Source: Thermoplasmatales archaeon SW_10_69_26 (lineage in GTDB: Archaea > Thermoplasmatota > SW-10-69-26). Taken from it: DNA of 27,354 bases. The notes below the pieces were generated by a model that was given only the letters and a program-made list of their open reading frames with translations, had not been told where the DNA came from and searched no databases. The DNA is taken from positions 1-27,354 of the forward strand of contig PXUB01000035.1 in the NCBI GenBank assembly GCA_003009755.1. The letters run 5' to 3'. The translations under genes were made by a program, and so were the position numbers. The number at the start of each line of letters is the position of its first letter. The stretch's first letter is position 1. Below are positions 957-19,395 of this stretch, piece by piece.

Positions 957-1473
957 ACTCGACCGACTGCGCCGGGCTGTCCTCGGCGAACACGCTCGCG
1001 GTCCAGTTGCCCGGCTCGATCGTCTGTGGGTCCGTGACCGGCTGGACGATCGGGCTGTCGCCGCTGGTGCTCTCCGGCGGGCAATCCTCGTTGAACCCGG
1101 CATCGCACGTCTCGAACGGGATGTCCATGTCGAAGAACATCGACGTGTCCGCGTCCCAGACGACCTCGGCCTGGATCGCCGTCGTCTCCCCGGAGACGTT
1201 GAATTCGAAGCTCGAGGATCCGCAGTCGAGGTAGCACACCGGTCCGAGGCCAGGCACGGTCCGCCCCTGGACGCTTCCGTTGTGCCAGGCGACCGTCACG
1301 TTGAGGCCCGAGTCCTCGGGCTGGACCTCGGTCCCGTTCGTCTGCGTCTCGTTGGATCCCTCGGAGGGGTCCTGGGAGGCCGCTTGGGCGTCCTCGCCGC
1401 TGTCGCCCATGCATCCGGCGAGCCCGGCGGTCACCAGCAGGAGGCCAACGATCCACGCTCGCGAAGCGGTCAT
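703..1473 (-). CDS. Four-Cys lipoprotein (paralogue 1), 3' end replaced
   Basis: Secreted lipoprotein of unknown function. A signal peptide with lipobox (TAGLAGC, Cys21) is followed by an acidic, Asn/Thr-rich linker and a domain shared with the products of 1534-2103, 2163-2771 and 5096-5698: a W-H-N-G-S-V motif, a PGLG turn, the Cys pair VCYLDC, and a second pair in TCDAGFNEDC before a Ser/Gly/Pro segment. Homology to the paralogues stops after SVEFTV at about position 955. The remaining ~85 codons (Pro/Arg-rich) are simply the antisense of the convergent gene, so the natural last ~20-25 residues are missing. ATG 1473 is preceded by GGAGG and a TATA-like box at 1498-1504. The N-terminal part is clearly coding; the annotated C-terminus is not native. 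Confidence 0.7.
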   Translation of the reverse strand: MTASRAWIVGLLLVTAGLAGCMGDSGEDAQAASQDPSEGSNETQTNGTEVQPEDSGLNVTVAWHNGSVQGRTVPGLGPVCYLDCGSSSFEFNVSGETTAIQAEVVWDADTSMFFDMDIPFETCDAGFNEDCPPESTSGDSPIVQPVTDPQTIEPGNWTASVFAEDSPAQSVEFTVPPPSAPAPPGPAKRRPPASRRAPARRCRPPTAPPGRPPPPRRARTSAVARRPHRRSRAWAPAASFAAEAAARARPRRPARP

Positions 1474-1497
1474 CGCCTCCTCGTTCCCCCAGGCGGG

Positions 1498-1504
1498 CTT
1501 AACG
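1498..1504 (-). promoter_or_regulatory. TATA-like box of the 1473 lipoprotein gene
   Basis: CGTTAAG on the minus strand begins 31 nt before the ATG, the spacing seen for most first genes in this window. Confidence 0.45.
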
Positions 1505-1533
1505 GTTCCCGATGCGAGATGAAACCGCGGCTC

Positions 1534-2103
1534 TCACGGGGCGGGGGCCTTCGTGTAGCCGGTGGGGACGCTGTCGCCGGTGAACTCGCTCACGACGACG
1601 GTCACGTCCACGCTCTGGTCGGGGGTGTCGCGCGGCCAGATCTCGAGGTTCCACTCGCCGCCGGGGACCTGGGTCGGGCGGACGGTCAGCGAGCTTTGAC
1701 CGGTCGCGTCCTCGGGAGCGCAGTCGTCGTTGGCGGTGTTGAACTCGCAGTCGTCGCCAGGCGCGTTGACGCCCAGGCGCATGCTGGCCGAGGTCTCCCA
1801 GAACGCCTCGACGAGCAGCGCACCGGTCCCGTTGGGGACCTCGTGGGTCCACTCGTGCGTGTCGCAGGGGTAGCAGTACTCGCCCAGGCCGGGGATGTTG
1901 TTGCCCTGGACAGTCGCGTTGAACCAGGTGGTGTTGATCTGCGGGCCCTCGGGCTCGGTGACGTCGGTCTCGTTCGTCTCGTTCGCCGGCTCGTCCAGGT
2001 CCGTCGACGAGGGATCGACCGCGTCGTCGCTGGCGTCGTCGCCCATGCATCCCGCCAGGCCGGCGGTGAGGAGCAGGACCGCGAGGATCGTCGTCCGCTG
2101 CAT
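1534..2103 (-). CDS. Four-Cys lipoprotein (paralogue 2)
   Basis: A 189-residue lipoprotein with signal peptide and lipobox (TAGLAGC), then a long Asp/Glu/Thr-rich spacer and a compact domain. Conserved features shared with its three paralogues: a W-x-N-x-x-V-x-G motif, PGLGEYC followed by a second Cys two residues later (CYPC), an FWE segment, a second Cys pair (DCEFNTANDDC), and a C-terminal beta segment (DQSVDVTVVVSEF). Function unknown; a binding or adhesion role outside the membrane is only a guess. ATG 2103 is preferred over an upstream ATG at 2127 because it gives a proper signal peptide and lies 31 nt from a TATA-like box. The gene lies downstream of paralogue 3 on the same strand, each with its own box. 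Confidence 0.8.
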   Translation of the reverse strand: MQRTTILAVLLLTAGLAGCMGDDASDDAVDPSSTDLDEPANETNETDVTEPEGPQINTTWFNATVQGNNIPGLGEYCYPCDTHEWTHEVPNGTGALLVEAFWETSASMRLGVNAPGDDCEFNTANDDCAPEDATGQSSLTVRPTQVPGGEWNLEIWPRDTPDQSVDVTVVVSEFTGDSVPTGYTKAPAP

Positions 2104-2127
2104 CGGAGGCCTATCGCGGTCGGGCAC

Positions 2128-2134
2128 CTAAGCT
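2128..2134 (-). promoter_or_regulatory. TATA-like box of the 2103 lipoprotein gene
   Basis: AGCTTAG on the minus strand starts 31 nt before ATG 2103. No Shine-Dalgarno motif is visible, which fits a leaderless transcript. Confidence 0.45.
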
Positions 2135-2162
2135 TGTCGTGCCCATCTCTTGGCCAGGGCGC

Positions 2163-2771
2163 CTACCCAGTCGGCACCTTGGACCACTGCCGCGGTGGGT
2201 CCTCGGCCGCGAACACGCCGACGACCATCGTGACCTCGGCCGGCCTGTTGGGGTTGTTCTCGGGCCACGCGGAGAAGGACCAGTCGCCGGCGTGCAGGTC
2301 GGCCGGGTTCGTGATCCGGAACTCCACCGGGCTCGAGCCGGTCTTGGTGTCCGGTTGGCAGTCGTTGTCGGAGGGGAAGTTCGTCTCGCAGGCCTCGGAG
2401 GGCACGTCGAGGTCCACGTCGAGCTGGACGTCGGCCTCCCAGAAGGCCTGGGCGACGATCATCGTGGTCTCGTTCGTGGCGTTGAACTCCATGCCGTTGT
2501 CTTGGCAGGGGTTGCAAAGCCAACCGAGGACGGGCAGGTCCTGGCCGCCGACGGTCGCGTTCTGCCAGTGGATCTCGGGCTGGGGGCCGGTCTCCGCCGA
2601 CGCGCCGGTCGTCTCGTTGGCGGTCCCGTTCGTCCGGTTGGTCTCCGAGGCGAAGGGGTCGTCGCTGCTGGCGGTCTCGGCGTCGGTCCCCTCGTCGCCG
2701 CCGAGGCCCAGGCAGCCTCCCAGGGCAGCCGCGAGGAGGATCGTGGCGGCGAAGAGCGCTCGTGTTCGCAC
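2163..2771 (-). CDS. Four-Cys lipoprotein (paralogue 3)
   Basis: A 202-residue secreted lipoprotein. The open frame extends much further upstream (to 4226), but only as antisense of the acyl-CoA dehydrogenase. The real start is GTG at 2771, which gives a short basic N-terminus, a hydrophobic core and lipobox (AALGGC), with GGAGG seven bases upstream. The spacer is Asn/Thr/Glu-rich. The domain carries the family pattern: W-x-N-x-T-V-x-G, PVLGWLCNPC, AFWEADV, a second Cys pair in ACETNFPSDNDC, then a final beta region (EVTMVVGVF). Function unknown. Divergent from the acyl-CoA dehydrogenase, with 123 bp between the two starts. Confidence 0.8.
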   Translation of the reverse strand: MRTRALFAATILLAAALGGCLGLGGDEGTDAETASSDDPFASETNRTNGTANETTGASAETGPQPEIHWQNATVGGQDLPVLGWLCNPCQDNGMEFNATNETTMIVAQAFWEADVQLDVDLDVPSEACETNFPSDNDCQPDTKTGSSPVEFRITNPADLHAGDWSFSAWPENNPNRPAEVTMVVGVFAAEDPPRQWSKVPTG

Positions 2772-2805
2772 GGGGAAGCCTCCAGCTGGGAGTCGCGTTC
2801 TGGCG

Positions 2806-2812
2806 TCATAAG
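2806..2812 (-). promoter_or_regulatory. TATA-like box of the 2771 lipoprotein gene
   Basis: CTTATGA on the minus strand begins 41 nt before GTG 2771, leaving room for a leader of about 10 nt that carries the GGAGG Shine-Dalgarno motif. Confidence 0.4.
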
Positions 2813-2862
2813 CTCTGGGATGGCGGCTCGTGGCCGACCGTGGCTTGCGAGGGCGGGACAAC

Positions 2863-2869
2863 CCTTGAA
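2863..2869 (+). promoter_or_regulatory. TATA-like box of the acyl-CoA dehydrogenase gene
   Basis: CCTTGAA begins 32 nt before ATG 2895, inside the inverted repeat ACCCTTGAAGGGT. Confidence 0.45.
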
Positions 2870-2894
2870 GGGTGGGAGGGGATTGGCGCAGGCG

Positions 2895-4046
2895 ATGGAC
2901 TTCGAGCTCAGCCCGCAGCAGGAGCAGATCAAGAAGGCGGCCCGCCAGTTCGCGGAGGAGCACTTCCCCGACCACGCCCGCGAGATGGACGAGGAGGAGG
3001 CCTACCCGCACGAGCTCGTGCAGCGCGCCGCCAAGCAGGGGTTCGTCGGGGCGACGCTGCCTCAAGAGTACGGCGGGGCCGGCGTGGATCTGCTGACGAG
3101 CGTGCTCGTGGCCGAGGAGTTCAACGCCGTCGATCCCGGGCTGGCCGGCGCGATCGGCAGCGTCGACTTCGGGACCGAGGCCATCCTGCAGCTGGGCACC
3201 GAGGACCAGCAACAGCGGTTCCTGTCGGGTGTGGCCGAGGCTGAGACGATCACGGGGGCCGCGATCAGCGAACCCGAGGCCGGCTCCGACGTGGCCGGCG
3301 CCACCTGTCGGGCCGAGAGGGACGGCGACGAGTTCGTCGTCAACGGCACGAAGATGTGGATCACGAACGGGACCGTGCTCGACCACATGGTCACGCTCGT
3401 GATGACCGACCCGGAGGCCGAGGACCGACACGATCGGCACTCGCTTTTGGTGATCCCATCGGAGGCGGAGGGCTTCACGGCGAACAAGATCACCGGCAAG
3501 CTGGGGATCCGCGCCTCCGACACGGCCGAGATCCAGCTCGACGACGTGCGCGTGCCGGAGGAGAACCTGCTCGGCGAGCCCGGCGAGGGCTTCGGCTACA
3601 TCATGAGCTTCTTCAACGAGGCCCGGATCGGCGTCGCCGCCCAGGGCGTCGGGATCGCGAAGGGCTGCATCGAGATGGCGCGCGACTACGCGACCCAGCG
3701 CCGCCAGTTCGGGCAACCGATCGCCAACTTCCAGGCGATCCAGTTCAAGCTCGCCGAGATGGCGACGAAGGCCGAGGCCGCCCGATTGATGACGTACAAG
3801 GCCGCCCGCCACTGCGACGAGGGCCAGCCCGTGCCCGAGATGTCGAGCAAGGCCAAGTGGTACGCCGGCGAGACCGCCGTCGAGTGCGCCGACGAGTGCG
3901 TGCAGATCCACGGCGGCAGCGGCTACGTGAAGGAGATGGACGCCGAGCGCTTCTACCGCGACGCGAAGATCACCGAGGTCTACGAGGGCACCAAGGAGAT
4001 CCACAAGCTCATCATCGCGCGCGGCCTGCTCGACCAGATCGGGTGA
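2895..4046 (+). CDS. Acyl-CoA dehydrogenase
   Basis: A 383-residue FAD enzyme of the acyl-CoA dehydrogenase family, the normal length. It oxidises an acyl-CoA to the 2-enoyl-CoA in the cytoplasm, in beta-oxidation or branched-chain amino-acid breakdown. Visible motifs: the helical N-terminal domain (ELSPQQEQIKKAARQFAEE), the FAD/substrate signature ISEPEAGSDVAG, W-I-T-N-G after it, the arginine-rich ATQRRQFGQPI segment, the QIHGGSGYV region, and EVYEGTKEIHKL, whose Glu (about residue 364) is the usual catalytic base of short/medium-chain and butyryl-CoA types. Chain-length preference cannot be read from the sequence. The start gives a standard N-terminus. No electron-transfer flavoprotein or other beta-oxidation gene is nearby; it stands alone among secreted-protein genes. 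Confidence 0.93.
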   Translation: MDFELSPQQEQIKKAARQFAEEHFPDHAREMDEEEAYPHELVQRAAKQGFVGATLPQEYGGAGVDLLTSVLVAEEFNAVDPGLAGAIGSVDFGTEAILQLGTEDQQQRFLSGVAEAETITGAAISEPEAGSDVAGATCRAERDGDEFVVNGTKMWITNGTVLDHMVTLVMTDPEAEDRHDRHSLLVIPSEAEGFTANKITGKLGIRASDTAEIQLDDVRVPEENLLGEPGEGFGYIMSFFNEARIGVAAQGVGIAKGCIEMARDYATQRRQFGQPIANFQAIQFKLAEMATKAEAARLMTYKAARHCDEGQPVPEMSSKAKWYAGETAVECADECVQIHGGSGYVKEMDAERFYRDAKITEVYEGTKEIHKLIIARGLLDQIG

Positions 4047-4077
4047 GGCTCGAGCCAGCTGTGGCCATCCCCCAAAC

Positions 4078-4084
4078 GTCTTCG
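4078..4084 (+). promoter_or_regulatory. TATA-like box of the phosphodiesterase-like gene
   Basis: GTCTTCG, preceded by CAAAC, begins 31 nt before ATG 4109. Weak match; the spacing is the main argument. Confidence 0.3.
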
Positions 4085-4108
4085 TCCCGCGGAGGTCATC
4101 GTCCCCCG

Positions 4109-5143
4109 ATGGTTCCCCGGCCCTGGTTGGTGGCGGTGCTCCTGGTGGCAGCCTCGGCGCTGGCTCCCCTCGGTCAGGCCGAGCATCCGGCCGAGGAGGT
4201 GACGCTCGTCGTCGTGGACGGGCCACGACACGATCTCGCCTTCGACCGCGAGGGCCCGATGCAGCCGCTCTACGAGGCGCCCGGTGTCACGTTCGCGAAC
4301 GACACGTGGACGGCGGGTCCGGCCAAGACCGTGCCGGGCCACGCCGCCTTGCTCTCTGGCAAGGCGCAGCCGGTCGCCAACGACGGCTCCCAGCGCCCCG
4401 AGGAGCCGCTCGTGTGGGACCAACTGGCCGAGGACCGCGGCTGGGGCGCCGATGAGATGCGCTGGCTGTACCAGAAGGACAAGCTGGTGGTGGTCGCCAG
4501 CGATCACGCCGGCGGCGGCCGGGTCGCCGGGGGACCGCCGGACGAAGCCATGCTCGAGGCGCTCGAGGCGAACACCAGCCAGGCGCAGGCTCGCCTGGTC
4601 GTGGCCGCGTTCGCCCGGCCCGACGACACCGGGCACGAGGGGGATTGGTCGGCGCATCGGGCCTCGCTGGCCACGATCGCGGAGGGGATCGCGCCGTTGC
4701 TCGAGCAGGCTGGCGAGGACGAGCTGGTCGTCGTCACAGCCGACCACGCTCGCTACTGCCAGGAGCCCGACGATCACGGCCGCGTGGGCCCGCTGGGCGC
4801 CGTGGACGAGTGCGATGCGCACGTGCCGCTGTGGGTCGCCGGCTGGCACACGCGGTCGAACGCGACCGTGGACGCGTGCCTGACGCAAGCCGACGTGGGC
4901 GTGCTCGTCGCCGAGGCGGCGGGGGCCGGCCTTCCCGAAGCCGAGGGGGCCTTCCCCGAGCCGCTGGTGAACAGCTCCGCGGCGTGGCCCGGGCAGGGAT
5001 GCCCGCCCGAGCGCGGCGGGGGCCCGCTGGGGGTGCCCGGCCCGGGGCTGGCGCCGATCGTGATCTCGGCCGCGATCGCTGCGGTGCTCCGCCGGTCAGC
5101 TCGAGCTGCCGTTGGCGGGCAGCGCGGAGTACCCTTGGGGTAG
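4109..5143 (+). CDS. Secreted alkaline phosphatase/phosphodiesterase superfamily protein
   Basis: A 344-residue exported enzyme of the alkaline phosphatase/nucleotide pyrophosphatase superfamily. The N-terminus is a signal peptide (LVAVLLVAASALA). Superfamily motifs in order: VTLVVVDG with metal-ligand Asp37; K-T-V-P-G-H with the likely Thr nucleophile (about residue 74); DDTGHEGDW (Asp and His ligands); VVTADHA; and DDHGRVG. The substrate is unknown; a phosphate mono- or diester hydrolysed outside the cell is expected for the family. The C-terminus has PGPGLAP, a short hydrophobic stretch and arginines, resembling an archaeal PGF-CTERM-type sorting/anchor tail. The last 48 bp overlap the convergent lipoprotein gene, so the residues after the arginines may be a readthrough tail. 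The start gives the signal peptide directly. Confidence 0.75.
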   Translation: MVPRPWLVAVLLVAASALAPLGQAEHPAEEVTLVVVDGPRHDLAFDREGPMQPLYEAPGVTFANDTWTAGPAKTVPGHAALLSGKAQPVANDGSQRPEEPLVWDQLAEDRGWGADEMRWLYQKDKLVVVASDHAGGGRVAGGPPDEAMLEALEANTSQAQARLVVAAFARPDDTGHEGDWSAHRASLATIAEGIAPLLEQAGEDELVVVTADHARYCQEPDDHGRVGPLGAVDECDAHVPLWVAGWHTRSNATVDACLTQADVGVLVAEAAGAGLPEAEGAFPEPLVNSSAAWPGQGCPPERGGGPLGVPGPGLAPIVISAAIAAVLRRSARAAVGGQRGVPLG

Positions 5144-5698
5144 TTGGCCCTCCTCGACGACGGTGGCCACGATCGTGGGCTCGATCTGGGCCGTCGTCGT
5201 CTCGTCGACCCAGATCTCGGCCGACCAGGTCCCGGTGTGGTTCGTGCGTTCGCCCTCGAAGGTCAACGCCAGCGGGCTGGCCCCGTCGGTGTTGTCGCTG
5301 GGGGTGCAGATCTCCCCGAGGAGGGGGAAACTCTCGCAGTTGGGGCCGCTGACGTTGAACCACGCGTTGGCGTCGGCCTCCCAGGCGGCCTCGACGACGA
5401 TCGCCTGAGCGCCCTCGGCGACCTCGAACTCCATCGTGTTCTCGCACGCGGAGGTCGGTGTACAGTAGTAGCCGTCGGAGGGGATCGATCCGCCCTCGAT
5501 CGAGCCGTTGAACCAGGTCCTCGTCAGCTCCTGCATCGGCTCATCGGGTTCGTCGGTCGCGTTGGGCTCGGTCTCGTTGGGGTCCTCGTCCAAGCCCTGG
5601 GGATCGGTCGCCCCGTCGTCCCCGTCGCCGATGCAGCCCGCCATCCCGGCCGTGACGAGCAGGATGGCGACGATGAGCGTGCGCGCGTGTGCGGACAT
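5096..5698 (-). CDS. Four-Cys lipoprotein (paralogue 4)
   Basis: A 200-residue lipoprotein with signal peptide and lipobox (TAGMAGC), an acidic Asn/Glu/Pro spacer, and the same domain as the three genes at 0.7-2.8 kb: T-W-F-N-G-S-I, YYCTPTSAC (first Cys pair, wider spacing), AAWEADANAWF, a second pair in NCESFPLLGEIC, and a final segment ending LPQGYSALPANGSSS. Function unknown. Two adjacent ATG codons (5701 and 5698) are possible; 5698 puts a TATA-like box (TCTTGAA, 5724-5730) at 32 nt, matching neighbouring genes. A longer form from 5743 would add an N-terminal stretch not expected before a signal peptide. Convergent with, and overlapping, the phosphodiesterase gene. Confidence 0.8.
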   Translation of the reverse strand: MSAHARTLIVAILLVTAGMAGCIGDGDDGATDPQGLDEDPNETEPNATDEPDEPMQELTRTWFNGSIEGGSIPSDGYYCTPTSACENTMEFEVAEGAQAIVVEAAWEADANAWFNVSGPNCESFPLLGEICTPSDNTDGASPLALTFEGERTNHTGTWSAEIWVDETTTAQIEPTIVATVVEEGQLPQGYSALPANGSSS

Positions 5699-5809
5699 CA
5701 TCGTTAGCCATGGCTTGGCGTCCTTCAAGAGCTTGGGCGTCACGCGGCGGACAACAAGGTACCTCGGCCCCTGGCTGCGGGCGTCCGACCGACTCCTCCC
5801 CCGACGGGC

Positions 5810-7121: not shown

Positions 7122-8342
7122 CTAGCCCGCGAACGTCCAGACGTCCATGCCGCGCTCGCGGCCGACGCCGAAGGCCCAGCCGTGGTGGACCTGGACGTCG
7201 ACGACCTCGCCGACGGGGTCGTGGTCGACGACCTGGGGCGCGGTCACGTCGGCGAAGTCGATCGTGTAGGTGCCGCCGGAGAGGAACCCGACGACCATCT
7301 TGTCGCGGTCACCGACGATCTCGCCGAAGTGGGCGGTGCAGGAGCCGGTCTCGGCGCGCATCTCGCTGGCGGAGATCCAGCTTTGCGGGGTCGGCGCTTG
7401 CTCCTCGCTGACGTCGTAGAACCACAGGGCGCCGACGGGGTCGGTCGTCGTGCCGCCGGTGGCGGGGTTCTCGGCGCTGGCGCCGGCGCAGCCGTTGGCG
7501 GCGTCGCTGGCGGCGCCGGCGAGCTCGTCGCCGATGACGAGCGTGTCCCCGTCGTTGGCGGGGATCGCCCAGTGGTGGATGTTGATCGCCGGGTTGGCGA
7601 TCCGGGTGACGATCTCGGGCCGCTCGGGGTCGGCGATTTCCCAGATCTGGGTCTCCCGGACGCCGGCGCAGTAGGCCCGGTCGTCGGGCATGTGGAAGCT
7701 GATGTCGTGGCAGGTGAGGTCGTTGAACGTCCGCACGAGCTCGGGGTTGGCGGGGTCGCTGGCGTCGACGATGTCGACGCCGGGCGTGTCGACGGAGCGG
7801 GAGTTGTAGATAAGGTGCGTGCCGGGGACGACGGCGATGTTGTGGACGTTGCCGTCGTCGCCGCCGAGGACGTTGGCGACCTTCTCGGGGTTGGTGGGAT
7901 CGGTGACGTTGATGATGTCGATCCCGCTGCTCGTGGCGGCGTTGGCGACGAACGTGCGGCCGTCGTCGTAGTTGAGGACCCAGGGGTCGTGGCCGAACGT
8001 GTCGGCGACGTGGCCGAGGACCTCGGGTTGCATGGGGTCGGAGATGTCGACGGTGTAGAAGCCGGCGTTCCAGGCGGAGATGTAGGCCATCTCGCCCTGC
8101 ACGGCGATCTGGTAGGCGCTGTCCAGGCCCTCGTCGGGGCCCAGCGTGAGCTCGTGCTCGACGCCGGTGATCTCCCCGGGCAGCTCCCGGGCGAACGTGG
8201 GCTCGTCGGGCGACGTCTCGGGACCCTGCTCCTCGACGCTGGCCGTCTGGGCCTCGTCGAAGCCGATGCAGCCGGCCAGGGCCGGCGTGGCGAGGGTCAA
8301 GGCGATCGCCAGAGCCAACCAACGGCGAGCACGCGAGCTCAT
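7122..8342 (-). CDS. LVIVD-repeat beta-propeller lipoprotein (copy 1)
   Basis: A 406-residue exported lipoprotein: signal peptide, lipobox (PALAGC), acidic spacer, then propeller blades built on the LVIVD pattern: FYTVDISDPMQPEVLG, GIDIINVTDPTNPEKV, GVDIVDASDPANPELV, TQIWEIADPERPEIV and ALWFYDVSEEQAPTP. Conserved Cys residues occur in TCHDISF, AYCAG, NGCAG and SCTAHFGE. LVIVD propellers occur on archaeal and bacterial surfaces; their ligands are mostly unknown. ATG 8342 lies 31 nt from a strong TATA-like box. It is closely related to the two genes just upstream on the same strand, but separated from them by a 359-bp gap holding an anti-sigma-like fragment on the other strand. Confidence 0.85.
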   Translation of the reverse strand: MSSRARRWLALAIALTLATPALAGCIGFDEAQTASVEEQGPETSPDEPTFARELPGEITGVEHELTLGPDEGLDSAYQIAVQGEMAYISAWNAGFYTVDISDPMQPEVLGHVADTFGHDPWVLNYDDGRTFVANAATSSGIDIINVTDPTNPEKVANVLGGDDGNVHNIAVVPGTHLIYNSRSVDTPGVDIVDASDPANPELVRTFNDLTCHDISFHMPDDRAYCAGVRETQIWEIADPERPEIVTRIANPAINIHHWAIPANDGDTLVIGDELAGAASDAANGCAGASAENPATGGTTTDPVGALWFYDVSEEQAPTPQSWISASEMRAETGSCTAHFGEIVGDRDKMVVGFLSGGTYTIDFADVTAPQVVDHDPVGEVVDVQVHHGWAFGVGRERGMDVWTFAG

Positions 8343-8366
8343 CGTGCGAGCAGGCGTGGCAGGCCT

Positions 8367-8373
8367 TCAAAAG
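8367..8373 (-). promoter_or_regulatory. TATA-like box of LVIVD copy 1
   Basis: CTTTTGA within ACGCTTTTGAAGGC begins 31 nt before ATG 8342. The box is nearly palindromic and could also serve the rightward ORF starting at 8390. Confidence 0.5.
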
Positions 8374-8389
8374 CGTTGCTGTCCGCGGG

Positions 8390-8704
8390 GTGGTCGGTCT
8401 CACCCGCACCGTCGGCTCTCCCGTGGGCCTTCACGCTCGTCCCTGGCTGTCCGCCGAGGCCTGGCTCCTCGACGAACCGGCCGGGGAGTGGATCTTGCTG
8501 GGTCGGCGCACGCCGGGAGCCGACGGACACCGGGTCGACGCTGGTCGAGAACGCGTCACGCTGGGGGACCAGGACCGGTTGCTCGTCACGATGGAGCCCG
8601 CCGAAGCCGACGCCGGCCGGTCGGGTCCCCCTCGGCGCCGTCGAAGCCAGCTCGCTGTTCGACGTGTCCACGCCCGCCCTCGCCCGCGAGGCCGCCCGTC
8701 GTCA
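8390..8704 (+). pseudogene. Anti-sigma-K (RskA)-like extracellular domain, frameshifted
   Basis: Fills most of the 359-bp gap between two LVIVD genes. Frame 2 from GTG 8390 encodes AEAWLLDEPAGEWILLG, GADGH and DRLLVTMEPAEADAGR. At about position 8625 the coding-like sequence moves to frame 1 (PLGAVEASSLFD). The pattern 'AWLL...W..LG......G.......LLVT.EPA......P.G' is that of the extracellular domain of bacterial anti-sigma-K (RskA-type) factors. The usual N-terminal sigma-binding domain and membrane helix are not seen. Archaea have no sigma factors, so any role would be different. Either a small single-domain protein with a sequencing error or a remnant. The 3' end runs straight into the stop of the convergent LVIVD gene. 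Confidence 0.4.
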
Positions 8705-9892
8705 GTCGCCAGTGGGCACGACGACGTCCAGGCCGCGCTCGGTGTCGCCGCTGAACAGGTATCCGTTGTGGTAGCGGGTCTCCCAGTTGTCGCCCACGGG
8801 CAGCGCGTCGTCGAGGATCTCGGGGTTGCGGACGTCGGCGAAGTCGACGAGCACGGAGCCGGCAGCCCGCCAGCCGACGACGATCTTGTCCTGGCCGGGC
8901 AGGATCTCGCCGAAGTGCGCCGTGCAGGGGGCCGGCGGCGTGTTGTCGGCCGGGACCGGCGGTGCCACCCAACTGATCGGGACCGGCGTGGTGGGGTCGG
9001 ACACGTCGTAGAACCAGATCGCGCCCACCGGGTCGCTGGTCGTGCGCTCGAGACCCGGCGTATCCACTCCGGCCAGGCAGCCGGCGGCCGCGTCGGTCGA
9101 GCCGGCGAACTCGTCGCCGATGATCAACGTCTCGCCGTCCTCGGTCACGGTCGCCCAGTGCTGGATCTGCATCGAAGGGTTGTGGATGCGGGAGACGATC
9201 TGGGGGTCGAGGGGATCGGTGATGTCCCAGATCTGCGTCTCAGCGTGGGCCGGGCAATACGCCGTCTCGGCCTCGGGGCCGAAGCTCACGTCGTGGCAGG
9301 CCAGCTGCTCGCGCGTGTCGACGACCTCGGGGTTGGCGGGGTCCGAGACGTCGACGATGTCGACGACCTGGTCGCCGGTGCTGCGGGCGCTGTAAACGAT
9401 GTCCGTGCCGGGGACCTGGCCGACGTTGTGGACGAGGGCGTCGGTGAGGGCCTCGCCCACGATCTCGGGGGTGCGGGGATCGGTGACGTCGGCGAACAGC
9501 ATGCCGTCGCCGTTGGTGGCCAGCACGGCGATCGTGCGGTTGTCCTGAAAGACGAGGTCGACGTCGCGGGTGTACCGGCCGGTGATGTTACCGAGGACCT
9601 GGGGGTCCTCGGGCGTGCTGACGTCGACGACGTGGAACCCGCTGTTCTGGCCGCTGACGTAGGCGTGGTCGCCGTGGAGGTCGAGCCCGGCGCCGGCCTC
9701 GACGTTCTCGACGTGGGCCAGCGGCTCGAGCCCGGTGACGTCCTCGGGCAGCGGGCGGGCCCAGTCCTCGCTGGCGTTGGCCTCGGAGGCGGCGTCGGCG
9801 GCCTCCTCGATCGGCTCCTCGCTCCCGAGGCAGCCGGCGGCGACCAGCGCCAGGCAGGCGAGCCCGATCCAGGCGAGCTGGGACCGATCCAT
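8702..9892 (-). CDS. LVIVD-repeat beta-propeller lipoprotein (copy 2)
   Basis: A 396-residue lipoprotein with signal peptide and lipobox (VAAGC), an acidic spacer and the propeller repeats FHVVDVSTPEDPQVLG, MLFADVTDPRTPEIVG, VVDIVDVSDPANPEVV, TQIWDITDPLDPQIV, IWFYDVSDPTTPVP and VLVDFADVRNPEIL. Cys and His landmarks match the other two copies (ACHDVSF, AYCPAH, AGCLAG, PCTAHFGEI). It begins only 2 nt after the stop of copy 3, and GGGGAG lies a few bases before its ATG, so it is the second gene of a two-gene operon translated from a Shine-Dalgarno site. Cell-surface location is inferred from the lipobox; ligand unknown. Confidence 0.87.
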   Translation of the reverse strand: MDRSQLAWIGLACLALVAAGCLGSEEPIEEAADAASEANASEDWARPLPEDVTGLEPLAHVENVEAGAGLDLHGDHAYVSGQNSGFHVVDVSTPEDPQVLGNITGRYTRDVDLVFQDNRTIAVLATNGDGMLFADVTDPRTPEIVGEALTDALVHNVGQVPGTDIVYSARSTGDQVVDIVDVSDPANPEVVDTREQLACHDVSFGPEAETAYCPAHAETQIWDITDPLDPQIVSRIHNPSMQIQHWATVTEDGETLIIGDEFAGSTDAAAGCLAGVDTPGLERTTSDPVGAIWFYDVSDPTTPVPISWVAPPVPADNTPPAPCTAHFGEILPGQDKIVVGWRAAGSVLVDFADVRNPEILDDALPVGDNWETRYHNGYLFSGDTERGLDVVVPTGD

Positions 9893-9894
9893 CG

Positions 9895-11112
9895 CTAGCT
9901 CCCCGTGGGGACGAAGACGTCCATGCCGCGGTCGGTGTCACCGCTGAAGACGTACCCGTTGTGGTAGCGGGTCTCCCAGTTGTCGCCGACCGGGGTCACG
10001 TGGTCGACGAGCTCGGGCGCGGACGGATCGGAGAAGTCGACGACGTAGGTGCCGGCGGCCCGCCATCCGATCACCATCTTGTCCTGGTTGGGGAGGATCT
10101 CGCCGAAGTGCGCCGTGCAGGGCGTCGGCGGGACGTTGTTGGCGGGCAGCTCGGGCGCGACCCATCCGAGCGGGACCGGTTGGCTCTCGTCGCTGATGTC
10201 GTAGAACCAGACGGCCCCGTAGGGATCGGAGACGGTGTGGTCGTCGGTCGGGTTGTCGGCGGTCGCGTAGCAGCCGGCGGCGGCGTCGGTGCTGCCGCCG
10301 AACTCGTCGCCGATCACGAGCAGGTCGCCGCCGTTGGTGACCGTGGCCCAGTGGTGGACGTGCATGAACGGGTTGTAGATGCGGGTGAGTACGTCGGGGT
10401 CCTCGGGATCGGAGATGTCCCAGATCTGGGTTTCGCGGACGCCGGCGCAGTAGGCGCGGTCGTCCTCCGCGGAGAACGTGATGTCGTGGCAGGTGAGGTC
10501 GTTGAACGTCGCCACGTGCTCGGGGTCGTCCGGGTTGGAGGCGTTCACGATGTCGACGCCGGGCGTGTCCACCGACCGCGAGTTGTAGACGAGGTCCGTG
10601 CCGGGCACGACGTTGGCGTTGTGGACGTTGCCCTCGCCGCCGCCGAGCGCCTCGCCGACGACCTCGGGCTGGGTGGGCTCGGTCACGTCGATGAACACCA
10701 TCCCGCCTCCACTGGCGGCGGTGACGACGACGCTTCGGTTCCCGTCGTGGAGCATCTCGACGTCGCGCGTGAACTGGTCCTTGATCTCGCCGACGACCTC
10801 CGGCTCGTTCGGTGTGGTCAGGTCGACCACGTAGAACCCCGTGTTCTGGCCGCTGACGTAGGCGTAGTCGCCTTCGGTCCAGAGACCGCCGGCCGCTTCG
10901 ACGTCCTCGACCTGGGTCAGGTGCTCGATGCCGGTGACGTCGTCCGGCAACGGGCGGGCCCAGTCCTCGGCCTCGTCGGCGGCTTCGCTGTCGGGCGTGC
11001 TGGCGGTCTCGGCGCTTTGCCCTGCGTCACCGATGCAGCCGGCCAGGACGGGTGTGGTCAGCAGCAGAGCGAGCGCGATCGCGACCCCCGGAGCCGTGGG
11101 CTTGCCTCCCAT
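9895..11112 (-). CDS. LVIVD-repeat beta-propeller lipoprotein (copy 3)
   Basis: A 405-residue lipoprotein, first gene of an operon with copy 2. The frame is open to 11457, but the signal peptide (MGGKPTAPG..., lipobox PVLAGC) begins at ATG 11112, 33 nt from a TATA-like box; upstream codons translate a repeat region. Blades: FYVVDLTTPNEPEVVG, MVFIDVTEPTQPEVVG, GVDIVNASNPDDPEHV, TQIWDISDPEDPDVL, VWFYDISDESQPVP and YVVDFSDPSAPELV. The Cys landmarks TCHDITF, AYCAG, AGCYA and PCTAHFGEI are shared with copies 1 and 2. The three genes clearly arose by tandem duplication. Function unknown beyond a probable surface binding propeller. Confidence 0.87.
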   Translation of the reverse strand: MGGKPTAPGVAIALALLLTTPVLAGCIGDAGQSAETASTPDSEAADEAEDWARPLPDDVTGIEHLTQVEDVEAAGGLWTEGDYAYVSGQNTGFYVVDLTTPNEPEVVGEIKDQFTRDVEMLHDGNRSVVVTAASGGGMVFIDVTEPTQPEVVGEALGGGEGNVHNANVVPGTDLVYNSRSVDTPGVDIVNASNPDDPEHVATFNDLTCHDITFSAEDDRAYCAGVRETQIWDISDPEDPDVLTRIYNPFMHVHHWATVTNGGDLLVIGDEFGGSTDAAAGCYATADNPTDDHTVSDPYGAVWFYDISDESQPVPLGWVAPELPANNVPPTPCTAHFGEILPNQDKMVIGWRAAGTYVVDFSDPSAPELVDHVTPVGDNWETRYHNGYVFSGDTDRGMDVFVPTGS

Positions 11113-11138
11113 GGTAGCGGGGAGCCGGCCTCGCAGGA

Positions 11139-11145
11139 CTAAAGG
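11139..11145 (-). promoter_or_regulatory. TATA-like box of the LVIVD copy 3/copy 2 operon
   Basis: CCTTTAG, preceded by a purine-rich ACAAA element that could be the BRE, begins 33 nt before ATG 11112. Confidence 0.45.
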
Positions 11146-11165
11146 TTTGTGGGGGACGCGGCGGG

Positions 11166-11273
11166 CGTGGAGGGCACAGAGGGGGTAGAGGACGCAGAGA
11201 GCCACCCACAGAGACACAGAGGACACGGAGAACACACAGAGAGGAAGGAAGGGCGATGGGAGGGGAAGAGGGA
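11166..11273 (+). repeat. CACAGAG-type repeat array, left arm
   Basis: Degenerate units of about 9-10 bp (GGCACAGAG, CCACAGAG, ACACAGAG, ACACGGAG) followed by a GGAAGG/GGGGAAGAG purine run. An inverted, clearly similar copy lies at 11931-12032 on the far side of the GxxExxY pseudogene. The array ends about 20 bp upstream of the promoter of the LVIVD operon. No protein coding is supported in it. Confidence 0.7.
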
Positions 11274-11290
11274 GGTAGTTGGGGGAGAGA

Positions 11291-11871
11291 TCAACGGGCC
11301 AGTCGATGGAGGCCCTCGACCAGCGTCTGGCGGTGGAAGTTGACGATGAGACCGAGGGGGAACTCTCCCTTGCTGAGGTAGGTGAGCAGCTGGGCTCGAT
11401 GGACCGGTTGGACCTCGCTGACGGCTTTGATCTCGACGACGACCCGCCCCCCGACAAGCAGGTCGAGCCGGTAGGAGGCTGACAGCTGTTCGCCTCGATA
11501 GCGCAAGGGCGGGGTTCTGTAGCTGTCTCAGCCAGACGGAGTCTATTTGATCTCCAAGGCCTCTAGCGGCTATATCCGGCCCCTTCATCGCTTCAGCCGT
11601 CACGATCGCTTCGAGCGACAAAAGTCCGTGGTGGAGGGCCTTGTTGTCGCTAGTTCCTCTCCCAACTGAGACACGTTTAGAACCTCGGCGCAAGGGTAGG
11701 TGGACCTGGGACCGGCAGCCGATTCCCTCGTCGGTCGAGCTCCGCCGAGAGCGCCTCCTCGCAGGCGCGCTCGAGGAGCCCAGGCCCGAGGCGGTCGTGG
11801 ACCTCGACCGCTGCACCGATGACGTCGTCAGTGACCTCGCTGAGTTTCGCGGGCGGCTCCTCATCCACCAC
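11291..11871 (-). pseudogene. GxxExxY family protein (PDDEXK-like), broken by MITE and a one-base insertion
   Basis: The N-terminal half (from ATG 11871) reads LSEVTDDVIGAAVEVHDRLGPGLLE, the family signature with G-P-G-L-L-E. The C-terminal half (11291-11506) reads YRLDLLVGGRVVVEIKAV...HRAQLLTYL...LGLIVNF, matching the second half of the ~120-residue family. Between them sits a 178-bp insertion (11510-11687) flanked by a 9-bp duplication. A second lesion is also visible: at about 11723 an extra base shifts the frame, since the continuation GIGCRSQVHLPLR is in another frame. The family has a PDDEXK-nuclease-like fold; its biological role is not established. The gene is bracketed by inverted CACAGAG repeats. 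Confidence 0.75.
11510..11687. mobile_element. 178-bp MITE-like insertion with 9-bp target duplication
   Basis: The ends are imperfect terminal inverted repeats: GGTTCTGTAGCTGTCTCAG on the left and, reverse-complemented, GGTTCTAAACGTGTCTCAG on the right (17 of the first 22 positions match, counted from the outer C). Both sides are flanked by the direct repeat GCGCAAGGG (11501-11509 and 11688-11696). The interior is too short for a transposase, although one minus-strand frame stays open through it. This is the signature of a non-autonomous transposon moved by an enzyme encoded elsewhere. It interrupts the GxxExxY gene. Confidence 0.8.
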
Positions 11872-14183: not shown

Positions 14184-15890
14184 ATGTCGGAGGTCAAGGT
14201 CGCCTTGCTCGCCGTCGCGATGCTCACGATGGGTCTGTCCGGGTGCATCGGGACCGGCGAGGATCTCGAGGAGCAACGCGTCGACGACGTCGGGGAGGAC
14301 GCCGTCGACAGCACGAACGGATGGAGCACGCCGACCGAGCCGCGGCGGTACGAGATCCTGCCGGGCATCGAGGCGTCGTTCACCAGCTTCGACGACACGG
14401 AGATCTCGGTGGGCGTCTTCTTGCCCGACAAACCGGCGTGCGACTGGAACGCCAGCGAGCAGCCCGAGGAGTGCCAGCTGCCGGTCGTGATCGACGCCGG
14501 CCCCTACTGGGGTGACGGCGAGGAGGACAAAAGCTTCCGTCCACCGCTCGTCGAGTGGCTGGTGCCCCGCGGGTACGCCGTGCTGCACATGAGCGTGCGC
14601 GGTACCGGTGAATCCGGCGGCTGCATGGAGTTCATGAGCCAGGCCGAGCAGGCCGACGTCGACGAGACGATCACCTGGGCCGCCAAGCAGGCCTGGAGCA
14701 ACGGCAACGTCGGCATGATGGGCCGCAGCTACGACGGCACCACGCCCCTGATGGGCGCCGCCAGCGGCAACGAGAACCTGGAGACGATCGTCCCCATCAG
14801 CGGCGTGTTCAGCGTTCCCGACCTCATGTTCAAGAACGGCACCAGCGAGACCCGCGGCCCCATCATGCACAGCGTCGTCTACTGGGGCCTGTTCGGGATG
14901 GGCGCCATCTACGGTGCCGAGGCAGCCGACTTCCGCGCCGAGCACTGGGCCGAGCAAGCCTGCGAGGAGGTCGTCGTCGGCCAAGCCCAAGGCGGCTACG
15001 CCACCGCGACCGGCGACGCCAGCGACGAGTACTGGCAGGTGCGCGACTTCACGGAACCGATCCTCGAGAACTACAACGGGTCCGTGTGGGTCGTCCACGG
15101 GATGCAGGACTGGAACGTGAATCCCAGCCAGGCGATCCCGTTCTACCAGGCGATGGAGGAGGATCCGGACATCGAGACGAAGGCCTGGTTCGGCCAGTGG
15201 GACCACGCCTACCCCGACCGCGTCGACGAGCACCGCAACGTCCGCTGGGACTGGGCCGACAGGACCCTGGCCTGGTTCGACCACTACCTCAAGGAGGACG
15301 AGCAGGCGCCCACGCCCGATCTGACCGTCGAGGTCGAGGACTCCCTGTACGTGTGGCGCACCGAGGACACCTACCCGCCCGAGGACGCCGAGCCGACCAC
15401 GCACGAGACCGACCTCAGCGGGACGGTGGCCGCCAACAACGCGGTGTCGTGGACCAGCGAACCGCTGGACGAGAACGTGCGCGTGGCGGGCCTACCGAGC
15501 GTGGAGGTCACGGCCACCCCGACGACGACCGAGGGCGGCTGGGTGTTCGCCGAGCTGTACGACGTCTACCCCGACGGCGTCAGCATGCGCGTCGGCTGGG
15601 GCGCCCTGAACCTGGCCTACCACGAAGGCGGCAACACCGACCCGGCCACGCTCACGCCCGGCCAACCGATCGAGACCGAGATCACGTTCGAACCGATGGA
15701 CGCCCACATCGGCGAGGACCACCGCCTGCGGTTGGTGCTCCACAAGGACGGCGTCGAGGACATCCCCCAAAGCCCCGACCCGTCGCCGGTCACCGTCGAC
15801 GACGTGAACCTCGTCATGCCGCAGATCGACCGCGACGAGACCCTGGCCGAGCCGACCCCGCCCGGGCTGAACGACATGGAGGTCCGCTGA
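14184..15890 (+). CDS. CocE/S15-type alpha/beta-hydrolase lipoprotein (copy 1)
   Basis: A 568-residue secreted hydrolase of the Xaa-Pro dipeptidyl-peptidase (S15)/cocaine esterase (CocE) type. Signal peptide with lipobox (GLSGC, Cys21). The catalytic domain has RGTGESGG, then GRSYDG with nucleophile Ser182, Asp309 in VHGMQDWNVNP and His341 in QWDHAYPDR, giving a complete triad. The C-terminal jelly-roll domain typical of the family follows (EGGWVFAELYDVYPDG, GWGALNLAYHEGG, GEDHRLRLVLHKDG). Anchored outside the cell, it would cleave esters or prolyl peptides; the substrate cannot be told. First gene of an operon: the next gene starts one base after its stop, and a GGAGGT Shine-Dalgarno for that gene lies inside its last codons. 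Confidence 0.92.
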   Translation: MSEVKVALLAVAMLTMGLSGCIGTGEDLEEQRVDDVGEDAVDSTNGWSTPTEPRRYEILPGIEASFTSFDDTEISVGVFLPDKPACDWNASEQPEECQLPVVIDAGPYWGDGEEDKSFRPPLVEWLVPRGYAVLHMSVRGTGESGGCMEFMSQAEQADVDETITWAAKQAWSNGNVGMMGRSYDGTTPLMGAASGNENLETIVPISGVFSVPDLMFKNGTSETRGPIMHSVVYWGLFGMGAIYGAEAADFRAEHWAEQACEEVVVGQAQGGYATATGDASDEYWQVRDFTEPILENYNGSVWVVHGMQDWNVNPSQAIPFYQAMEEDPDIETKAWFGQWDHAYPDRVDEHRNVRWDWADRTLAWFDHYLKEDEQAPTPDLTVEVEDSLYVWRTEDTYPPEDAEPTTHETDLSGTVAANNAVSWTSEPLDENVRVAGLPSVEVTATPTTTEGGWVFAELYDVYPDGVSMRVGWGALNLAYHEGGNTDPATLTPGQPIETEITFEPMDAHIGEDHRLRLVLHKDGVEDIPQSPDPSPVTVDDVNLVMPQIDRDETLAEPTPPGLNDMEVR

Positions 15891-15891
15891 C

Positions 15892-17697
15892 GTGCGCGCT
15901 CTCGCCCTCGGGCTCGCCGTCACGATGCTGACGATGGGCATGGCCGGGTGCGTGGGCTCCAGCGAGAACCTCGCGGAGGCCAGCGAGCCCACGGCCGACG
16001 ACGACGAGGACCTGAACACGACGCGCGGCTGGAGCTCGCCCAGCACGCCCCAGACGTACGACGTGCTCGAACCGGTGCACACCTACGTCGAGAGCGTCGA
16101 CGGCGTCGAGGTCTCGATCGCGTACTGGCTGCCGGACAAGGACGGCTGCGACTGGAACGCGACCGAGCTGCCCGAGGACTGCCGGCTGCCGACCGTGCTC
16201 GAGGGCGGCCCCTACTTCCTGGACGGGATCGACGAGGAGGGCTTCCGCCCGCCGAAGGTCCAGTGGTTCGCCACGCGCGGGTACGCTGTCGTCGACATGA
16301 GCCTGCGCGGCACCGGCGAGTCCGGCGGCTGCTACGAGTTCAAGAACCCCAAGGACGTCGACGACGTCGACCATGTCGTCGACTGGATCGCCGAGCAGGC
16401 CTGGAGCGACGGCGACGTCGGCATGATCGGCCGCAGCTACGACGGCACGGCCGCCTGGGCCGGCGCCGCCAGCGGCAACGAGAACCTGGAGACGATCGTC
16501 CCCATCAGCGGCGCGCTCGACGGCCCCGACCTCTACTACAAGAACGGGACCAGCGAGACGCGCGGCTTCGCCCAGCCGGCGTTCTACTACCTGTACGCGT
16601 TCGGGCTCGTCAGCGACGATCCGACCTACCGCGTGCCCGATTACATCAACACCCTGTGCCCGCAGGCCGCCGCCGAGGACTGGACCCGCGGACCGAAGGC
16701 CGGCATCACCGGGGACGCCTCCAGCGACTACTGGCAGTCGCGGGACATCAGCGACGAGATCCTCGACAAGTACGACGGCTCGGCTTGGGTCATCCACGGG
16801 ATGCAGGACTACAACGTGAACCCGAGCCAGGTCGTCCCCTTCACGCACGAGATGCGCCACGAAGGCATCGAGACGCTGGCCTGGCTCGGCCAGTGGGACC
16901 ACGCCTACCCCGACCGCGTCGACGAGCACCGCAACATCCGCTGGGACTGGGCCGATCGCCTGCTCGAGTGGTTCGACCACTACCTCAAGGAGGAGGGCGA
17001 GGAACCGTTCCTCGGCGTCGAGGTCGAGGACTCGTTGTACGTCTGGCGCACCGAGGAGGCCTATCCGCCCCACGACGCCGAGTGGCGGGGCTTCGAGCTC
17101 GGCGCCGACGGCGAGCTGACCGAGCCCGGCGAGGCCAGCTCGGGCCAGTTCGCGCTCGCCGGTCCGCCGGCGGGCGCGGCGGCGGACTGGAACGCGGGCG
17201 AGGCCGGCTCGCAGATCACGTTCACGTCCGATGCGCTCGCCGACGACATCCGCATCGCCGGTCTGCCGCGGCTGCACGTCGACGTGACGCCCACCACAAC
17301 CGAGGGCGGCTGGCTGTTCGCCGAGCTGTACGACGTCTACCCCGACGGCCAGTCGCTTTTCTTGGGCTGGGCCGCGATGGACCTGCGCTACCACGACGGG
17401 GGCAACACGGACCCGGCCACGCTCACCCCCGGCGAACCGGTCACCGCGAAGATGCAGTTCGAGCCGATGGACGCCCACGTCGCCGAGGGCCACCAGCTGC
17501 GGCTCGTCGTGCACAAGAACGGCGTCGCCGACATCCCCCAGAGCCCGAGCCCCGAGCCCAACGTGCTCAACTTCGGTGACGAGGCCAGCGTGCTCGAGCT
17601 GCCGACCGTGGAGCGCGACCTCGCGCTGCAGGGCGACGGCGAGCCCCGGCAACGCGACCCGGCACCGACGGCGCCGCCCGCCGACGTGACCCGGTGA
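15892..17697 (+). CDS. CocE/S15-type alpha/beta-hydrolase lipoprotein (copy 2)
   Basis: A 601-residue tandem paralogue of the preceding gene. Signal peptide and lipobox (GMAGC, Cys20); RGTGESGG; GRSYDG with Ser182; Asp in IHGMQDYNVNP; His in QWDHAYPDR; C-terminal jelly-roll domain with EGGWLFAELYDVYPDG. Compared with copy 1 it carries an extra ~30-residue Gly/Ala-rich segment between the catalytic and C-terminal domains (around GPPAGAAADWNAG) and a longer Pro-rich tail. GTG 15892 is set by the GGAGGT motif eight bases upstream and by the signal peptide. Translation is probably coupled to copy 1. The divergence in the insert suggests a different substrate from copy 1, an inference only. Confidence 0.92.
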   Translation: MRALALGLAVTMLTMGMAGCVGSSENLAEASEPTADDDEDLNTTRGWSSPSTPQTYDVLEPVHTYVESVDGVEVSIAYWLPDKDGCDWNATELPEDCRLPTVLEGGPYFLDGIDEEGFRPPKVQWFATRGYAVVDMSLRGTGESGGCYEFKNPKDVDDVDHVVDWIAEQAWSDGDVGMIGRSYDGTAAWAGAASGNENLETIVPISGALDGPDLYYKNGTSETRGFAQPAFYYLYAFGLVSDDPTYRVPDYINTLCPQAAAEDWTRGPKAGITGDASSDYWQSRDISDEILDKYDGSAWVIHGMQDYNVNPSQVVPFTHEMRHEGIETLAWLGQWDHAYPDRVDEHRNIRWDWADRLLEWFDHYLKEEGEEPFLGVEVEDSLYVWRTEEAYPPHDAEWRGFELGADGELTEPGEASSGQFALAGPPAGAAADWNAGEAGSQITFTSDALADDIRIAGLPRLHVDVTPTTTEGGWLFAELYDVYPDGQSLFLGWAAMDLRYHDGGNTDPATLTPGEPVTAKMQFEPMDAHVAEGHQLRLVVHKNGVADIPQSPSPEPNVLNFGDEASVLELPTVERDLALQGDGEPRQRDPAPTAPPADVTR

Positions 17698-17781
17698 GGC
17701 CATCGCTCGCCCGGCCACCGATGACGAGCGTCGGTGAGGTGACCGGGCGGGCTCTTGCCACCGACCTCCAGCGTTCGAGAA

Positions 17782-17788
17782 CGTTTTT
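17782..17788 (+). promoter_or_regulatory. TATA-like box of the 17814 gene
   Basis: CGTTTTT within GAACGTTTTTCC begins 32 nt before ATG 17814 and favours that start over one at 17694. Confidence 0.45.
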
Positions 17789-17813
17789 CCGATGGTCAGA
17801 TGATGATCTGTTG

Positions 17814-18818
17814 ATGTCTGTGGGAGGACCTCGTGCTGTCCTGCTGGGAGCCTTGTTGTTGACCGTCGGTCTCGTGCCCACCGCGGCGAACGCGCAAGAG
17901 ATCTGCGCGGACGCCGGGCCCGCCGAGCTGTGCGTGGCCGATCCGCTCGTGCACGATGCCGGCGAGATCACCGTGACAGGCCAGGACGTGTCCGCCGAGG
18001 CCAACGGCGGGATCGCGACCGGTGTCGGAAGCGCCACGTTCGCGGTCGACTACACGATCGACGCGCCCGCCCTCGCCTCCGACGAGCAGCTCGTCGTCGA
18101 CGGCGACCTCGTCATCCGTGACAGCAACGGGTACCTGGTCGCCCGCGAGGACCTCACCGAGTCCCTGACCGCCGGCGAGTCGGTCACCGGCGAGCTCCAG
18201 ACCACCGTCGAGACCGTCGCTCCCCTCGTCGACGGCGGCTCGATCACCGTCGATTCCTCCGCCGACATCGTCCAGGGCTACGAGCGCACCAGAGTCGGCG
18301 CGGCCCAGTCGGCCTCCCCCGTCACCGTCGTCGCCACCCCGCACCAGGACGTCGCCGACCGCACCACCGCCGGCGACACGATCACCGTCGGCTACGCCGA
18401 AGCCGGCCCCACCCAAGCCGACGCCGACGTGATCGACGGCGAGCTGATCGTGGCCACCGACACCGCCGTCCGCCTCGAGATGACCGGCGAGCTATCCTCG
18501 AAGACTTTCAACGGCGTCGACAACCTCCGACAGGACGCTAGCGCCTCCCTCCGTGCGTTCAACGCCGACGGCTTCTACGAGCGGGTCCGGCTGGCGCCGA
18601 TCGAAGAGCGGTGCTATTCGAACTGCTCGACGCAAGACCAGACCGTCCCGGTCGAGCTCTCGATCGTCATCCCCGGCGACGCCGAGAACCCCGACCAGGA
18701 CCTCCGCCTGCAAACGGGGGCCAGCTGGTCGGCGTTTTATTACGACGGCTTCTACCAAGACGAAGCGTTCTCCGACAGCGCCGAGGGCCTCAACGACCTC
18801 CTCGCCGCGGGCACCTAG
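17814..18818 (+). CDS. Secreted protein of unknown function
   Basis: A 334-residue protein with a classic signal peptide (AVLLGALLLTVGLVPTAANA, probable cut after ANA) and no lipobox Cys, so probably released or held by another means. The mature part is acidic, Thr/Val-rich and beta-like, with Cys residues near its N-terminus (EICADAGPAELCVADP) and a later pair (ERCYSNCSTQD). No known domain is recognised. No C-terminal membrane anchor is present, unlike the other surface proteins here. The stop codon TAG is part of a repeat (CTAGACTGCCGG) that begins exactly there, so the native 3' end may have been altered when that element arrived. Confidence 0.75.
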   Translation: MSVGGPRAVLLGALLLTVGLVPTAANAQEICADAGPAELCVADPLVHDAGEITVTGQDVSAEANGGIATGVGSATFAVDYTIDAPALASDEQLVVDGDLVIRDSNGYLVAREDLTESLTAGESVTGELQTTVETVAPLVDGGSITVDSSADIVQGYERTRVGAAQSASPVTVVATPHQDVADRTTAGDTITVGYAEAGPTQADADVIDGELIVATDTAVRLEMTGELSSKTFNGVDNLRQDASASLRAFNADGFYERVRLAPIEERCYSNCSTQDQTVPVELSIVIPGDAENPDQDLRLQTGASWSAFYYDGFYQDEAFSDSAEGLNDLLAAGT

Positions 18819-18859
18819 ACTGCCGGCTGTGCTTGGGTTAAGCTCTCGCTCGGCCTCAG
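18815..18859 (+). repeat. 45-bp repeat, copy A (left end of hairpin element)
   Basis: Begins CTAGACTGCCGGCTGTGCTT and continues through GCTCTCGCTCGGCCTC. An inverted copy lies at 19351-19395 and a direct copy at 27255-27299. All three share CTRRACTGCCGG, a T-rich stretch, TTANGCTCTCGC and CGGYCT. Confidence 0.8.
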
Positions 18860-19350
18860 GCGGTGAAAGCGCGGAGCCGAGGCGAAGGAGTAGCCGGAGG
18901 CTACTTCGATGTCGAAGGCGACAACGCTTGGAAAAAGTCACAACCTGCAAGGATTGCATCATCGCCGCCTGAGGACGGCCTCACGTGGAGGCGCAGCACG
19001 GATCGAAGATCTTCCCGAGCCCGGGAGGGCTCGGGTGCTCGCGCGGATCCGCGCGATCCGTACGCGTCGCGGGATCGGGCAGGGACGGGCCGATCCCGTG
19101 AGCGTCCGACCGCGAGTCGCGGTCGGGCGGACCACAGACGGCCGGCGGCCGTCTCTGGCGCCGGCGTGAGGCGCCCAATCTCTTTGTCGCGCCCGGAGAT
19201 CTCGCCCGAGGGCGATCTCCGGCGCGTCCGAACCCCCTGTGGTTCGGACAGCGTCCGTCGCAAACCATCCAGGTTTGCTTCCTTTTGCCTCGCTCCCTCG
19301 CACGAGCCCTCCGGGCTCGTCCTCTCGGCAGACCGTGCCCGGTCTGCCGA

Positions 19351-19395
19351 GACCGGCGCGAGAGCCTAAGCAAAACACGTCCGGCAGTTTAGTGG
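19351..19395 (-). repeat. 45-bp repeat, copy B (right end of hairpin element)
   Basis: On the minus strand it reads CTAAACTGCCGGACGTGTTT, then GCTTAGGCTCTCGCGCCGGTCTC; inverted relative to copy A and very close to copy C. Confidence 0.8.

Follow-up and report, generated by a model that had tools for sequence, protein, structure and literature searches.

A gene-less block of hairpins in a Thermoplasmatales genome is very probably a miniature IS630-type element with a mosaic palindromic interior

In contig PXUB01000035.1 of Thermoplasmatales archaeon SW_10_69_26, a block of hairpins lies between inverted repeats. The question raised by this locus is whether it represents a large ornate non-coding RNA or a palindrome-rich non-autonomous transposon, the two options left by a sequence-only reading of the 27,354 nucleotides analysed (the window). 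Judging from its ends, copies and insertion sites, the block is very probably a miniature non-autonomous transposable element (MITE) of the IS630 (Tc1/mariner-like) type, and the mobiliser of this gene-less element is probably the single IS630-type transposase of the genome.

The hairpins are real and far exceed chance. Eleven non-overlapping ones, with at least 7 pairs and at most one mismatch, were found between 18889 and 19352, and the bases in stems of at least 7 bp numbered 196, against a mean of 20 and a maximum of 72 in 60 dinucleotide shuffles. Folding z-scores were -10.2 as DNA and, as RNA, -9.1 for the plus strand and -9.95 for the minus strand. The many perfect hairpins with unrelated stems described earlier were borne out by the hairpin scan and the shuffles: those at 19226-19249 and 19014-19035 were recovered with 9 bp each, the 12-bp hairpin at 19324-19351 proved to be one pair longer (13 bp, 19323-19352), and the 16-bp palindrome at 19040-19055 gained two bases as a perfect 18-bp one at 19039-19056. 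Their number and density had been overstated, since about 11 hairpins and not about 16 are robust, and they take up about 55% of 18889-19351, where nearly every base had been claimed.

The block, earlier placed at 18815-19395, is the same one found here, but the element proper is a 576-bp repeat of A-type at 18816-19391, the outer TA being counted at both sides. Its ends are inverted as had been proposed; they are not clean 45-bp copies, however, but imperfect terminal inverted repeats of 34-35 bp with about 80-83% identity. The list of open reading frames holds no convincing protein gene inside 18816-19391, in agreement with the earlier reading. According to the comparison of ends across copies, the elements of this family span TAGACTGCCGG to CCGGCAGTCTA, and their termini read GACTGCCGG...CCGGCAGTC with a TA on each outer side. 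The features in the window are the following:

18816-19391, plus strand: whole A-type element, with paired ends TAGACTGCCGG...CCGGCAGTTTA and about 40 homologous places in the genome
18816-18849, plus strand: left terminal inverted repeat, 34 bp, with 27 of 34 positions in inverted match to the right end; conserved among A-type copies
19358-19391, minus strand: right terminal inverted repeat, 34 bp, an inverted match to the left end
18816-18817: left TA, presumed target duplication (site CTAG), from paired-end and junction comparison
19390-19391: right TA, presumed target duplication, from the same comparison
18816-18818, plus strand: TAG, the start of the element and the stop codon of the upstream gene 17694-18818 (list of open reading frames; in-frame coding test positive)
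18816-18995, plus strand: A-type left block, common to about 20 copies at 81-97% identity
18889-18905: hairpin slot S1, in which copies differ in the stem on both arms
19011-19131: centre with hairpins 19014-19035, 19039-19056, 19070-19098 and 19106-19126, present in this copy only, with no match elsewhere in the genome
19132-19242: module with 97% identity to a degenerate relative on contig 11 (18590-18700)
19226-19249: hairpin slot S7, with different stems in other copies
19285-19391, plus strand: A-type right block with slots S2 and S3 (repeat search; copy alignment)
19323-19352: strongest hairpin, 13 bp, slot S3 (hairpin scan)
27257-27354, minus strand: second copy, right end first, truncated by the contig end (repeat search; end pattern)

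The host genome is archaeal and 2.82 Mb in size; its SSU rRNA matched the archaeal model over the full length with 1498 bits, and archaeal SRP RNA and RNase P RNA are present. A search of this assembly with the element gave 73 matches at about 40 dispersed places, among which the ends recur most and the middle varies, and complete copies measure 83-576 bp. The copies were gathered as separate genome stretches, and their list may be incomplete. Several lie at contig ends, as is expected where a repeat broke the assembly. The pattern of TAGACTGCCGG, 10-30 bases and CTCTCG occurred 67 times in the host genome and 0 times in the reversed-pattern control; the same pattern was found 0 times in 30 relatives, and nothing was found in collections of genome contigs and viral contigs. 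No DNA match to the element was obtained in 59 relatives. The earlier reading held that a lack of transcription, of further copies in related genomes and of covarying stems would leave only a chance or decayed region; dozens of copies exist in the host genome, but none was found in any other genome searched.

Some variants were observed among these copies. Related elements that carry a TAGCCTGCCGG-type end on one side or both occur at L048:2262-2720 (contig 11), L066:5423-5581, L125:1583-1683 and L128:1278-1425, and the one on contig 11 has lost its right end and has hairpin modules in common with the window copy. An A-type copy at L066:3000-3340 (contig 14) is split by a second insert with ends GGGTGCTGA...CAGCACCC, and the A-type copies in L107 and L116 (at contig ends), L037 and L123 run into GAGGGTGTGTAGCTGTCTCAG or a close variant of it, which is probably a further IS or repeat that has inserted there.

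A profile search detected a single DDE_3 transposase in the host genome, and it lies in the only full IS630-family element found there, an IS of 1132 bp on contig 32 (89545-90676) that is bounded by the termini of the hairpin family. Its transposase consists of two open reading frames, which match HTH_33, HTH_32 and DDE_3 and together matched the IS630 model NF033545 over 9-133 and 136-292 of 299. Where the two frames overlap, seven consecutive A offer a plausible frameshift site. Since there is a single copy and the transposase lies in two frames, the IS may be inactive now. B-type ends match those of the IS over most of about 28 bp, and the A-type ends, the kind found in the window, are close to them over the first 11 bases only and diverged inward. 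Nothing recognised in the interior of the element is in common with the IS; a simple internal deletion of the IS therefore does not account for it. With ends matching the only full IS630 of the genome, it is best read as a non-autonomous IS630 element, putatively mobilised in trans by the IS630 transposase. This enzyme would bind the shared ends, excise the element and insert it at CTAG, duplicating TA. A profile scan for relatives of the transposase in the collection of genome contigs found none.

The ends of the copies are consistent with such a target. Among 67 ends, 53 read CTA, 9 TTA and 5 ATA, and TA is present at both ends in nearly all copies; a duplication of TA is what these ends suggest. 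After removal of the element and one TA, the window copy reads CACCTAGTGG. The coding test used here asked for an open frame with high third-position GC, and by this test 18 of the 25 two-ended elements had an in-frame stop with a neighbour, compared with 25 of 82 other CTAG sites (p=0.00035), the latter being taken from the DNA around the elements and not a random sample. An in-frame stop with both neighbours was found for 5 of the 25 elements and for 3 of the 82 sites. Because each end begins with TAG, insertion at a CTAG stop would keep the stop of the neighbour in either orientation and would do little harm, and such insertions would hence accumulate. To explain the enrichment at stop codons, no more is needed than purifying selection against insertions that fall within genes.

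The joined flanks were searched as empty sites against all the DNA collected, and the search returned no true empty site, only the flanks of the elements themselves or weak chance matches. In a genome of the same family (G001), the orthologue of the downstream gene adjoins msrB as in the window, with another upstream neighbour and no element; this different neighbour means that the locus cannot serve as a clean empty site. For the upstream gene 17694-18818, G001 gave no match. Elsewhere in the window, 703-5743, 7122-11457 and 14184-17697 contain runs of secreted or lipoprotein-like genes that are paralogous to one another, with four small and three longer genes on the minus strand plus two adjacent CocE/NonD-like hydrolases, which suggests tandem duplication.

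The interiors of the copies are mosaics of palindromic, interchangeable hairpin modules. The window copy combines an A-type left block (94% identity to contig 40), the unique centre, the module resembling contig 11 (97%) and an A-type right block. Fixed slots hold different stems in different copies, and these stems are mostly complementary; in slot S1, for instance, three pairs have both sides changed in 8-10 of 23 copies. Whole modules are absent from many copies, and copies C19, C30 and C36 carry chimaeric arms, which point to exchange followed by correction. We infer the origin of the palindromes and their near-perfect upkeep as follows: modules would spread through recombination between copies, and the arms would be kept complementary by DNA-level correction inside the hairpin, through template switching or gene conversion, or alternatively by selection on the form of the DNA and not of an RNA. 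It is conceivable, if doubtful, that the palindrome modules have a function at DNA level, either for the element or for its host, and are near-perfect by selection and not only through correction of hairpin arms; possible examples are cruciforms or single-strand hairpins in transposition or module exchange, and two-way barriers at gene ends. As a separate observation, an insert GTGAGGGGGGTCACGGAGACCGCTCCCCCTCG...GGACCGGAAATGTTCTGG that forms an inverted repeat of its own recurs inside L112, L117, L119, L123 and the majority of A-type copies whose interior is long, and copy C45 has two diverged versions of it in other slots; it may be an older nested element.

The option of a large structured non-coding RNA, whether independent or part of a mobile element, with the terminal repeats as its closing helix, would agree with the very stable folds predicted on both strands and with stems that change on both sides, but it is very unlikely. 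A selected RNA structure would tolerate G-U and not its mirror, A-C. Pairs in the slots comprised 333 Watson-Crick, 4 G-T and 9 A-C, with slot patterns that favour recognisable hairpins equally for G-T and A-C, whereas the SRP and RNase P RNAs of the same genome gave 19 G-U and 1 A-C (p=0.00016 against the slots); these two RNAs served as the pairing control in place of a tRNA scan of the loci, which was useless for it. A permissive hairpin count showed more G-T than A-C, yet C-T exceeded A-G at a similar ratio, so that the G-T excess most likely reflects composition; this count is noisy and was given no weight in the conclusions. Moreover, the covariance search of the element against Rfam gave no match, whole modules are lacking in many copies, and both orientations are equally common beside genes, with stops at 12 of 35 left ends and at 11 of 26 right ends. 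The lack of G-U bias, together with the likeness of both orientations beside genes, argues for DNA-level palindromes. The stems do covary, which had been proposed as a check, but they do so in a strand-symmetric manner, as expected of DNA palindromes. Thus, of the two options left by the sequence-only reading, the RNA lost ground on the counts of Rfam, G-U and orientation, and the transposon gained it through dozens of copies, shared termini, TA at both ends and an IS630 with the same termini; the palindromes look to be maintained as DNA and not as an ornate RNA.

Other explanations start from the location or from the palindromes themselves. The elements often abut stop codons, a fifth of the two-ended ones at both sides, and palindromes act alike on both strands, so that the host might keep copies derived from a mobile element as two-way barriers to transcription or at mRNA 3' ends. 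We consider this unlikely, as purifying selection accounts for the location without any benefit, just two weak terminator-like sites were seen, and termination in archaea generally needs no hairpins. In addition, the IS and small repeats of pneumococci likewise cluster between convergent genes (PMC3049150). An array of the REP/BIME type, mobilised by a RAYT (IS200/IS605-like) transposase, is hardly credible: it would match the mosaic of short palindromes, and REP termini too often supply TAG stop codons (PMC3733652), but what is seen, namely long (34-bp) terminal inverted repeats, TA ends, placement at CTAG and a DDE transposase gene bounded by matching ends, agrees with IS630. Finally, a chance or decayed palindromic region could be suspected from the centre 19011-19131, which exists in this copy alone; the shuffle controls, the defined ends and above all the dozens of copies refute it and leave it practically no probability.

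Read as a MITE, the element forms with its IS an archaeal IS630/MITE pair in which insertion into CTAG stop codons appears to do no harm, owing to ends that start with TAG. The dozens of copies, with changing yet mostly complementary hairpins and no sign of RNA selection, constitute a natural set and a test bed for the creation, exchange and correction of DNA palindromes. They also give a warning that strong covariation alone is no proof of a structured RNA, from which the comparison of G-U with A-C can tell DNA palindromes apart. If the DNA-level role were true, the element would count as a modular DNA-structure transposon, for which the literature search returned no counterpart.

MITEs as a kind are well described, and this particular family was not found in the collections searched; the combination of traits seen here was not found in the open-access literature searched. 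Like the MITEs of archaea (SM1-SM4 of Sulfolobus and others), which reach 25-44 copies per genome, the element is non-autonomous, but a hairpin-module interior and placement at CTAG stop codons are not mentioned in the parts of that source consulted (PMC10969869). REP/BIME sequences share the mosaics of palindromes and the termini giving TAG stops (PMC3733652), whereas REPs measure 20-40 bp, go with RAYTs of the IS200/IS605-like type and are devoid of long terminal inverted repeats. The nearest described relatives are two repeats of pneumococcus. RUP (repeat unit of pneumococcus) is a MITE for which mobilisation by IS630-Spn1 has been proposed, and it resembles the archaeal element in being gene-less, with terminal inverted repeats as in a resident IS630, a TA target and many copies (PMC2229807); it differs in being 107 bp, AT-rich and uniform, while the archaeal element is 83-576 bp, GC-rich and modular with stop-supplying ends. 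BOX of Streptococcus pneumoniae is likewise a modular mosaic, of up to 637 bp, strongly folded and predicted to pair its terminal repeats (PMC3049150), but its three modules are fixed and it is linked less strongly to an IS (ISSpn2), whereas the archaeal slots hold many hairpins and a matching IS630 is present. The element is thus closest to RUP in its IS630 ends and presumed TA target, and to BOX in its modular build.
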